DNA of 53,337 nucleotides. Source: Deltaproteobacteria bacterium (GTDB lineage Bacteria; Desulfobacterota; Binatia; HRBIN30; JACQVA1). The translations under genes were made by a program, and so were the position numbers. The notes under the pieces were generated by a model, which was not told where the DNA came from, made no database searches, and saw only the letters and a list, made by a program, of their open reading frames with translations. The DNA lies in the NCBI GenBank assembly GCA_016210005.1, contig JACQVA010000182.1, positions 1 to 53,337 of the forward strand, in the 5' to 3' direction. Below are positions 2,678-34,452 of this stretch, one piece after another. Positions within the stretch are counted from its first letter, which is position 1; each line of letters opens with the position of its first letter.

Positions 2678-5071
2678 ATGCAACGTGATGACAGCCAAGC
2701 ACCGCCGCCTGCAGCCCTCGGTACCCTGAGAGTGATGGAGTACGGCACCGGTGTCGCCACCGCCTTCTGCGCCCGGCTGCTCGCCGACTTCGGGGCCACG
2801 GTCTTCAAGATAGAACCCCCCACGGGCGACCCCCTGCGACATCACGGCCTGTTTCCCGGCGATAAGCCGCATCCCGATCACAGCGCTCTGTTCGCTTACC
2901 TCAACGCGGGTAAGCAAAGCGTGGCGCTCACGGGCGATCATGAGGCTGACCGCACGCTGCTAGCCCGGCACGCCGGCGGTGCCGACGTGCTGGTAACCGA
3001 CCTGCTGCCGGCCGAGCGTGCGACCTGCAATCTCGACGAGATCAGCGCCGGTGGAAACATGGTGACGGTATGCTTGCCCGCCATCGGCTCCTGGGGTGCC
3101 TTTGGTGGGCGGCGCGCTTACGACCTACAAGTCTGCGCGCTGTCGGCGGCCAGCATCATCCTGGGTGAACCCAAGCGGCCGCCGCTGCACTTCCCGTTTC
3201 ACTTGCCGGCGCTGCAAGCCGGTATGCACGGGGCGGCGGCAGCGTTGAGCGCGTTGCTGGCGCGGCGCCGCTGCGGGCGGGGGCAGGCAGTCGAGGTCGC
3301 TGCTACCGACGTGCTCGCCTTCTACACCGGGGGCATGTCCCGATTCATTCTCGGCTCCGGCGGATCATGGCGGCGACGTGGCTTCGAGCGCCACGGCACG
3401 ATGTATCCCTCGGGCTTCTACCCGTGCCGGGACGGCTTCATCTTCATCGCCACCCAGACCCGCGCGCAATGGACCGGTTTCCTGCGCCTGATGGGTAACC
3501 CGCAGTGGGCGCAGCAGGACCCCGTGCTGCAAGACGGCGTGCGCATCGGCTGGGCACGCGCCGACGAGGTCGACCTGCACTTCATTCCCTGGCTGACGCA
3601 GTACACCCGGCGCGAGTTGGCCGACATGGCCCGCCAGGCCGATTTGGTCCTCGGCCCGATCAACAACGTCGATGACTTGTTTGGCGAGCCGCACCTGGAA
3701 GCGCGGCGCTTTTGGGCCGAGGTGAGCGTCGGCGAGACCACCGTGCGCATGCCGGGTATGGGGTACGCGATGTCGGCCACGCCCTGGCGCCTCGGGCGAG
3801 TGCCGAGGCTCGGCGAGCATGCCCAGGACGCCGTGGCCAGTGCGGTTGCCCCCGCGCGACCTCCGAGTCGACCGCCGGCGCGCATCCGCCGGCCGCTCGA
3901 GGGCTATCGCGCGCTCGAGTTCGGCTTCAACTGGGCCGGACCGCTGGTGGGACAGATCTTGGCTGACCTCGGCATGGAGGTGATCAAGGTCGAGACCAAC
4001 GCACGGCTCGACTTCATGCGCCATTGGCAGCACGCGCGAAAGTTTTTCCACAACGCCAACCGCGGCAAGCTGAGCGTCTCGGTCAACCTCAAGCAGGCGG
4101 GCGGGATCGAGCTGGTGCGCCGCTTGGCCGGCCGGGTCGATGTCGTCTTCGACAATTTCGCCGCTGGCGTCATGGCCCGCAACGGCCTCGGCTACGACGA
4201 CCTGCGCCAAGTCAAACCCGACCTGGTCGTGCTGTCGATGGCGATGGCGGGGCAAACCGGCCCGCTCAAACACCTGCGGGGATTCGCCACCATCGCCACC
4301 GGCTTCGCCGGTTTGGAGTCGGCCATTGGTTACCCCGATACTGGCTCGACCGGCCTGCCCTTGCTCGGCATTGGCGATACCAACGCCGCCATTCAAGGTG
4401 TGTACGCCTGCCTGGTGGCGCTGTGGCACCGCGAGCACACCGGTCAAGGGCAGTTCATCGACCTGTCGCAGATCGAGGCCGCCGCCACGCTTGCGGCCGA
4501 ACCGCTGTGCGACTTCCAAATCAACGGCCGCGTGGCCGCACCGCAGGCCAACCGCCACCCCTGGATGGCCCCGCACGGCACCTACCCCGCTGCCGGCAAG
4601 GACCGTTGGGTCGCCGTCGCCGTCGGCAGCAACGCCGAGTGGCAAGCGCTGGTGCAAGCCATGGGCGAGCCGTCGTGGGCCAAAGAGCCTGCCTTCAACG
4701 AAGCCCACAGCCGTTACGCGCGACAGGCCGAGATCGACGCGCGGCTGGCCCAGTGGACTGCCGCGTTCGATCGCGACGCGCTGGTCGAAAGGCTGCAAGC
4801 TGCCGGCGTCGCCGCCGCGCCCGTGCTCGAGATCGACGAGGTTCGCACCCACCCCCATTTCCAGGAGCGGCAGCTGTGCCAGGAAATCAGGAGTTTCGAA
4901 GGCAGCCCAGAGCTAGTATACAACACGCCGTGGCATTTCAGTTTGACCGCACGCGGCGTGGACCGGCCTTCACCGCAGGTTGGGGAGCATAACCACTATG
5001 TCTTCGGAGAACTGCTCGGGATGACGGCAGAGGAGATTCAACACCTCGCCGAGCAGCAAGTGATGTGGTGA
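2678..5071 (+). CDS. Tandem-domain family III (CaiB/BaiF) CoA-transferase
   Basis: A 797-residue fusion of two family III CoA-transferase domains, about residues 15-390 and 405-790; the usual member has one domain of about 400 residues. Both halves open with the typical fold start (RVMEYGTGVATAFCARLLAD; RALEFGFNWAGPLVGQILAD) followed by GATVFKIEPP or GMEVIKVE. The enzymes move CoA between carboxylic acids through an aspartyl-CoA anhydride. The second half has the expected Asp (about Asp567, in GIGDTNAAIQG). An ungapped alignment back from the shared G-x-GQ motif puts Ala (about 178) at that place in the first half, so only the second half looks catalytic. The ATG at 2678 is chosen because upstream residues look non-coding. 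The acyl-CoA ligase follows after three bases. Confidence 0.88.
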   Translation: MQRDDSQAPPPAALGTLRVMEYGTGVATAFCARLLADFGATVFKIEPPTGDPLRHHGLFPGDKPHPDHSALFAYLNAGKQSVALTGDHEADRTLLARHAGGADVLVTDLLPAERATCNLDEISAGGNMVTVCLPAIGSWGAFGGRRAYDLQVCALSAASIILGEPKRPPLHFPFHLPALQAGMHGAAAALSALLARRRCGRGQAVEVAATDVLAFYTGGMSRFILGSGGSWRRRGFERHGTMYPSGFYPCRDGFIFIATQTRAQWTGFLRLMGNPQWAQQDPVLQDGVRIGWARADEVDLHFIPWLTQYTRRELADMARQADLVLGPINNVDDLFGEPHLEARRFWAEVSVGETTVRMPGMGYAMSATPWRLGRVPRLGEHAQDAVASAVAPARPPSRPPARIRRPLEGYRALEFGFNWAGPLVGQILADLGMEVIKVETNARLDFMRHWQHARKFFHNANRGKLSVSVNLKQAGGIELVRRLAGRVDVVFDNFAAGVMARNGLGYDDLRQVKPDLVVLSMAMAGQTGPLKHLRGFATIATGFAGLESAIGYPDTGSTGLPLLGIGDTNAAIQGVYACLVALWHREHTGQGQFIDLSQIEAAATLAAEPLCDFQINGRVAAPQANRHPWMAPHGTYPAAGKDRWVAVAVGSNAEWQALVQAMGEPSWAKEPAFNEAHSRYARQAEIDARLAQWTAAFDRDALVERLQAAGVAAAPVLEIDEVRTHPHFQERQLCQEIRSFEGSPELVYNTPWHFSLTARGVDRPSPQVGEHNHYVFGELLGMTAEEIQHLAEQQVMW

Positions 5072-33602: not shown

Positions 33603-33726
33603 TGAGCCTGTCACCGGCCGCGGCGGCTTCGCGCGGCACCTCAGGAAGCCGGCGCTTGTCATGGGCGTCCGGCACAGGTAATAGAGAGCTGCCCGCAACT
33701 AGCGGAGGAGAGGAGGAAGCTCGCCA

Positions 33727-34452
33727 ATGGAGTACCCGACAACGCGCCGTGCCATCCCCTTGGGCGCTTTGGCGTTGCTGGCCGCATGCGGCCCGAGCGC
33801 CGAGGACGTTACCGAGCTGCGCAGCCAGCAAAAGCAGATCCTGGCCAAGCTCAACGACCTCGAGAAGAAGCTCGACGCCCGCCCGGTGGCCCCACAAGCG
33901 GCTGCCCGCCCGCAGATCGATCCCAACAAGATCTATGACATACCCATCGGCGCCTCGCCGGTGAAAGGAGCCAAGGAGGGCCGGGTCATCATCACCGAGT
34001 TCTCCGACTTTCAGTGACCATTCTGCGCCCAGTCCGCCAGTTTGGTGGACCAAATGCTGAAGGAATACCCGAACGACACACGCTTCGTGTACAAGCAGTA
34101 CCCGTTGCCGATGCACCCGTTCGCGATGGATGCGGCCAAGGCCTCGCTGGCCGCCGGCAAGCAAGGCAAGTTCTGGGAGATGCATGACGAGCTGTTCGCC
34201 AACAGCCGCGCCTTGCAGCCGGACAAGATCAGGGAATACGCGCAGAAGGTCGGCCTCGATGTCGCCAAGTTCGAAGCCGACATGAAGTCGCCCGAGATTC
34301 AGCAACAGATTCAGGACGAGATGAAGCTTGCCACCGACGTGCAGGTAACCGGCACGCCCACCATCTTCGTCAACGGCAAACGCCTAGGCAGCCGTTCGCC
34401 CGAGGGCTTCCGGGCGATGATCGACGAGATCATCAAGGGCAAGAAGGGCTAA
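33727..34452 (+). CDS. DsbA-like thioredoxin-fold selenoprotein (Sec97), readthrough of TGA
   Basis: A 241-residue lipoprotein-like DsbA/DSBA-thioredoxin protein. Residues 1-21 are a lipoprotein signal ending in LLAAC. A helical, coiled-coil-like segment follows (about 27-50), then the thioredoxin-fold domain from about 70. The only interruption is TGA at 34015-34017 (codon 97), where the first active-site Cys belongs: EFSDFQ-U-PFCAQSA; relatives read CPFC. The same frame continues with the rest of the fold, including the cis-Pro loop in VTGTPTIFVNGKRL (about 207-220). A hairpin at 34032-34050 follows the TGA. The ATG has GAGGAGGAAG upstream. The product would be a periplasmic thiol oxidase, reductase or isomerase. 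The alternative is a recent nonsense mutation. Confidence 0.82.
34032..34050 (+). promoter_or_regulatory. Candidate bacterial SECIS hairpin
   Basis: The segment GTCCGCC-AGTTT-GGTGGAC forms a seven-pair stem (one G-U pair) with a five-base loop AGUUU. The loop begins 22 bases after the TGA, leaving 21 bases between, within the range known for bacterial SECIS elements, and G is the second loop base, as is usual. An alternative five-pair stem TTTGG-TGGA-CCAAA overlaps it (34041-34054). SECIS elements bind SelB to insert Sec at UGA. This rests on hand pairing only. Confidence 0.6.

Follow-up and report, generated by a model that had tools for sequence, protein, structure and literature searches.

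Known DsbA-Like Selenoproteins and Comparison with the Locus

DsbA-like selenoproteins with a UxxC motif have been in print since 2005–2006, and the kind itself is established. They were recorded in the Sargasso Sea set under COG2761 (PMC1088965), listed for isolate genomes (PMC1794560), represented by 63 sequences named 'DsbA 1' in the GOS set (PMC2398784), and listed again, with NIP15863.1 as a named example, in a 2026 review (PMC13188914), which bears out the statement of an earlier note on this DNA that Sec forms of such proteins are known. The same review lists the NF041057 Rcas_1661 family thioredoxin-like (seleno)lipoprotein as DsbG-like, with UxxC. Two proteins of related fold, ScsC and alpha-DsbA2, are described in the titles or abstracts of their structure papers as trimeric disulfide isomerases. 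A literature search for Binatota together with selenocysteine found selenocysteine only in a reference list.

The window—the whole stretch of 53,337 nucleotides analyzed here—is contig C182 of a metagenome-assembled genome (MAG) of 5.9 Mb in 268 contigs, with 97.6% completeness and 4.5% contamination. Its predicted selenoprotein resembles the published DsbA-like selenoprotein (form 1; PF01323, UxxC) in having a DsbA-type domain, Sec in UxxC and Cys homologues, as these are described in print. The best NCBIfam match of the protein was NF041057 (residues 14–234), likewise a lipoprotein able to hold Sec; however, a score of 75 bits against the curated cut-off of 190 placed it outside that equivalog, and membership was rejected.

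The best among the 50 Foldseek hits listed were 3gyk, alpha-DsbA2 (6eez), BdbD (3eu3), and Caulobacter ScsC (7rgv). The top one, 3gyk from Silicibacter, is titled just thioredoxin-like oxidoreductase, and 6eez matched at the level of the domain. The catalytic domain shares its fold with BdbD and 3gyk (TM-score by target of 0.81–0.86), although identity is 22–31% and both of these proteins have Cys, not Sec. With ScsC (Caulobacter 7rgv, Proteus 5idr and 4xvw) the protein may share the placing of a DsbA domain behind an N-terminal helix, which is predicted here, and the Foldseek alignments to these stalked entries spanned at least 230 columns, gaps included. Nevertheless, identity to ScsC is 19–24%, and with an rmsd of about 12–15 Å any likeness of the stalks is at most one of kind and does not extend to their pose. 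The active site of ScsC has Cys and not Sec, and ScsC usually lies next to its partner ScsB in the scs arrangement; no ScsB-type partner was found beside the window gene, and the only DsbD_TM gene found in the genome was on another contig.

Gene and Protein Layout

The frame opening with the ATG at 33727 contained exactly one TGA, at codon 97, in the context EFSDFQUPFCAQ (TGA read as U). With C in place of U, the read-through protein was assigned by Pfam to DSBA (PF01323, E 8.7e-27, 94.6 bits against a cut-off of 25.6) and also to Thioredoxin_4 (E 1.8e-26). Its AlphaFold2 model, with Cys in place of Sec, had a mean pLDDT of 90.3 and a pTM of 0.75. The single TGA, Pfam, and AlphaFold2 thus agree with the earlier proposal that two frames in the same phase form one 241-residue DsbA-fold gene with U-P-F-C. 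The features of the locus are given in Table 1; we take GAGGAGG to be Shine–Dalgarno-like and LALLAAC to be a lipobox, the lipid anchor at Cys21 being a prediction, and the geometry of the Thr210–Pro211 loop is presumably cis, as in the family.

Table 1. Features of the predicted selenoprotein gene in the window and loci of VKOR-DsbA fusions with in-frame TGA in family f5
Feature	Position	Strand	Details and basis
dsbA-like selenoprotein gene (predicted)	33727..34452	+	241 codons and TAA stop (34450-34452)
Shine–Dalgarno-like GAGGAGG	33710..33716	+	10 nt upstream of ATG; read directly
Signal peptide (probable); lipobox LALLAAC with Cys21 as last residue	33727..33789	+	Translation; Cys at this column in 44/52 rows of alignment A3
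Predicted N-terminal helix (residues 25-50), a candidate stalk for oligomerization	33799..33876	+	AlphaFold2 model; long Foldseek alignments to stalked ScsC
In-frame TGA, predicted Sec97, first residue of UPFC	34015..34017	+	Translation and homologue codons
Second active-site residue Cys100 (TGC)	34024..34026	+	Invariant in alignment A3
Putative bacterial SECIS hairpin	34032..34050	+	7-bp stem 34032-34038 / 34044-34050, loop AGUUU 34039-34043
Thr210-Pro211 of active-site loop (GTPTIFVNG)	34354..34359	+	Both residues invariant across 52 rows
Predicted Sec VKOR-DsbA genes of family f5	L116:3261-4478 (P0002; TGA at 4008); L132 2194; L134 1860; L135 2257		

The nearest neighbors of the gene encode DUF354, UbiA, ArgJ, AcrB, and HlyD proteins, of which DUF354 and ArgJ say nothing about function. 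An ArgJ homologue adjoins the Cys homologue in two other genomes (G075, G076) and lies about 3 kb away from it in a third (G078), which points to orthology, not function.

General reassignment or suppression of TGA in this genome would also explain the read-through of the window gene. However, 24 of the 35 long ORFs of the window end in TGA, and three of these are supported by Pfam (luciferase-like, ArgJ, AcrB); the 35 ORFs are a mechanical, largely non-overlapping list, including some spurious ones and one opposite the selenoprotein gene. In addition, TGA is also the terminal stop of 6 of the family's 17 Sec genes. On these TGA stops in window and family genes, general reassignment was rejected as hardly credible, and TGA is a true stop elsewhere, as previously claimed.

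Codon 97 in Relatives and Selection on the Gene

Some match to the window protein was present in at least 142 of the 148 genomes of the class among the matches listed by the protein search. Reading of class loci revealed TGA at the aligned codon 97 in at least 18 genes of 17 genomes, one genome (G086) having two; the count of 18 is a lower bound because it comes from the loci read among the matches listed, which were only a part. After merging rows alike around the site (including those of G092 and G004), 101 distinct rows were obtained, and the family comprised 17 Sec rows and 34 distinct Cys rows, the latter with TGC or TGT at codon 97. The second active-site codon was TGC or TGT in every family row, Sec and Cys. 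On a tree of 77 of the 101 rows, from which 21 rows under 100 bits, two rows of L026, and one of L024 had been dropped, the Sec/Cys label changed at least six times. The homologue alignment suggested in the earlier note therefore revealed TGA alternating with TGC/TGT at codon 97, and the frame was otherwise open in relatives with any of these codons. A wider sample of the phylum (395 genomes, E up to 1e-45) yielded 12 matching genomes, five of them outside the class, and none of these five had TGA.

Comparison of the two closest genomes gave, for the 28 codons preceding the TGA, a dN of 0.19 and a dS of 1.26 and, for the 139 codons following it, 0.09 and 0.85, respectively; on either side the pattern of substitution resembles that of purifying selection. 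These data bear on a pseudogene or a sequencing error, in which a Cys codon, TGC or TGT, had mutated or been misread to TGA; a single base change suffices, and the genome is a MAG. Nevertheless, the same TGA recurs in the 18 or more genes with the frame otherwise open, dN is low relative to dS after the TGA, and the hairpin is conserved. Decay or error was rejected on this recurrence, open frame, selection, and hairpin, and we regard it as having a negligible chance of being correct.

The TGA might in addition be a switch that responds to selenium, so that cells lacking selenium would make a stalk lipoprotein of 96 residues with a role of its own. The part before the TGA does carry the signal, lipobox, and helix by itself; however, the N-terminal part is kept without a stop in Cys homologues, and no sign of a separate role was seen, which makes such a switch improbable.

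Tandem Sec and Cys copies (L009/L089, L078/L090, L081/L097, and L088/L098) were found in four genomes (G088, G081, G080, and G082). The gene's own stop was TGA in 6/17 Sec genes vs. 27/34 Cys genes of the family (Fisher p 0.004, genomes taken as independent), perhaps because Sec genes avoid ending in TGA.

Putative SECIS Hairpin

The published bSECIS model (PMC13188914) has a loop of 3–9 nt, in which G stands within the first two positions, in most cases ahead of G/U, and a stem of 4–16 bp located 16–37 nt from the UGA, with an MFE of ≤ −7.5 kcal/mol. Compared with the constraints as given in PMC13188914, the hairpin downstream of codon 97 fell within all of them (loop AGUUU, 7 bp, 21 nt after the TGA, −12.3 kcal/mol), and it co-varies in Sec rows; the earlier description of a hairpin at a fitting distance and with a fitting loop was thus confirmed. 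The outer A-U of the loop can pair too. The region 34010–34070 folded with a z of −2.06 (6/200 shuffles as good), and a stretch of 54 nt counted from the TGA had a z of −2.50 (3/200). For the 21-mer 34031–34051, picked once the hairpin was known and having the energy stated above, z was −5.24 (0/200).

Over eight pairs, the loop A-U counted, 91.2% of cells were paired in the 17 Sec rows, against 49.6% in 31 Cys rows, the same as in shuffled ones; the Cys control comprised 31 of the 34 rows (L015, L012 at 2347, and L094 were left out). When the partner was shifted by one to three columns, 15–48% of cells were paired in Sec rows, and one outer pair was unpaired in 9 of these 17 rows. Paired cells, doubly changed cells, and the covariation score were each equaled by 0/500 shuffles of the Sec rows, while two of the five measures, doubly changed pairs (3) and further pair types (6), were not above shuffles, being reached by 136 and 388 of 500; the shuffle tests, like the Fisher tests, take related genomes as independent.

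The loop corresponds to the eighth codon past the TGA, which was AGT in 15 of the 17 Sec genes and GGT in two. Elsewhere in the same genes AGT is rare, accounting for 1/150 Ser codons (Fisher 15/15 Ser vs. 1/150, p 2e-20, the two GGT genes set aside). Rfam gave 0 matches over the window at gathering thresholds, which is not counted against a bacterial SECIS.

A Cys homologue in G076 (L063 1771-1824) keeps the stretch CGGTTTGGTGGAT, close to the Sec hairpin, in a genome with no match to selA or tRNA-Sec; this stretch is possibly a fossil SECIS.

Selenocysteine Machinery

The genome of the window encoded tRNA-Sec (77.8 bits, anticodon TCA), selA, selB, and selD, all on contigs other than that of the gene (C148, C150, C247, C9); the search for these genes proposed in the earlier note thus found each of them, and neither of the two outcomes that the note named as refuting its proposal was observed. 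The selD match (L055 1501-2424) contains one in-frame TGA, which makes SelD a probable selenoprotein as well.

Across the class, selA or tRNA-Sec over 60 bits was present in 17/17 Sec-form genomes vs. 12/24 Cys-only genomes (p 0.0004, genomes taken as independent), and both were present in 15/17 vs. 8/24. The single misses among the Sec-form genomes concerned tRNA-Sec in G062 and selA in G063. Neither component was found in 12 of the 24 Cys-only genomes, whereas the other 12 have Sec machinery yet use Cys. The tRNA-Sec count was limited to matches over 60 bits. Those near 50 bits pass the Rfam cut-off but were judged to be other long tRNAs, and their inclusion raised the number of Cys-only genomes with machinery to 14/24 and weakened the contrast (p 0.002).

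We estimate the probability that Sec is inserted at UGA97 in a DsbA-fold protein at about 0.95; from the sequence, the insertion is predicted with near certainty. SelB and Sec-tRNA(Sec) would decode UGA97, aided by the hairpin just downstream. The product would be exported and probably lipid-anchored at Cys21, and a helical stalk would precede its catalytic domain of the DsbA type.

Predicted Function

The first residue of a UxxC motif is the attacking residue in thioredoxin-fold chemistry, and from its first place in this motif we infer that Sec97 has this part. Sec97 would attack substrate disulfides or oxidized thiols, and Cys100 would resolve the mixed selenenylsulfide. The genome of the window encodes a DsbD that has N-terminal, membrane, and thioredoxin domains. 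It also encodes a separate VKOR-DsbA fusion, which could be the maker of disulfides. Because of these two proteins and the likeness to ScsC and alpha-DsbA2, we favor an isomerase or reductase kept reduced by DsbD. The selenoprotein would then perform periplasmic disulfide isomerization or reduction in an ScsC-like manner, a role to which we give about even odds.

With Sec inserted, the enzyme might instead be an oxidant: a lipid-anchored oxidase of the DsbA/BdbD type, re-oxidized by VKOR, in which Sec would speed the exchange. BdbD, an oxidant, is among the best folds, the VKOR-DsbA fusion is present in the same genome, and family f5 has a related Sec DsbA encoded close to VKOR-DsbA. However, the VKOR of this genome already carries its own DsbA domain, the predicted stalk would be of the kind seen in the ScsC isomerases, and a lower redox potential is to be expected for a pair that contains Sec; an oxidizing role appears rather unlikely. 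Another thiol or peroxide task is more doubtful still.

Predicted Sec in VKOR-DsbA Fusions and a Second Sec DsbA Group

Four genomes of family f5 (G011, G014, G015, G016; Table 1) carry VKOR-DsbA fusions in which TGA takes the place of the first active-site Cys codon in the DsbA domain, the domain call being that of Pfam on the G016 protein. Each of these genomes had tRNA-Sec over 65 bits. A hairpin with a CGUG loop was part of the MFE fold in three of the four genes; the G016 sequence allows it, but its MFE fold is a different one. This TGA is less expected than that of the window gene. No report of Sec in VKOR was found in the literature searched, and the word VKOR is absent from the accessible text of the 2026 review (PMC13188914). 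The VKOR-DsbA gene of G012 (L133 2233) has TGC at that codon, yet shares the GCGCCCGUGAGGUGC stretch with the Sec gene of G016. Sec may have been replaced by Cys there, leaving the SECIS behind; the hairpin is absent from the MFE fold of both genes.

Family f5 also contained a second Sec DsbA group, with UPYC (L109-L115 and L116 2662, from G001–G007 and G016), 35–39% identical to the window protein. Its N-terminal part matched PPIase (28.8 bits, cut-off 27; L109) or, weakly and under their cut-offs, SurA models. In G001–G007, a Cys-type VKOR-DsbA gene was located in the same 5-kb stretch as the UPYC gene.

We tentatively suggest, as a reading that is possible but not favored, that the class runs a selenium-based periplasmic disulfide chemistry. 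It would combine the stalked, lipid-anchored, ScsC-like Sec isomerase encoded in the window with the f5 Sec DsbA, fused to a SurA/PPIase-like part and encoded near VKOR-DsbA, which itself has Sec in some genera. If this is true, Sec would occur in the disulfide-forming enzyme itself, the VKOR-DsbA of family f5.

Implications

Under the standard code this gene falls into two parts; it is now read whole, and its family occurs in Sec form in at least 17 genomes of the class. The predicted enzyme adds a candidate selenium-dependent step to the periplasmic disulfide chemistry of little-studied bacteria. Four genomes carry a Sec copy and a Cys copy in tandem and so allow a direct test of what repays the cost of using selenium.
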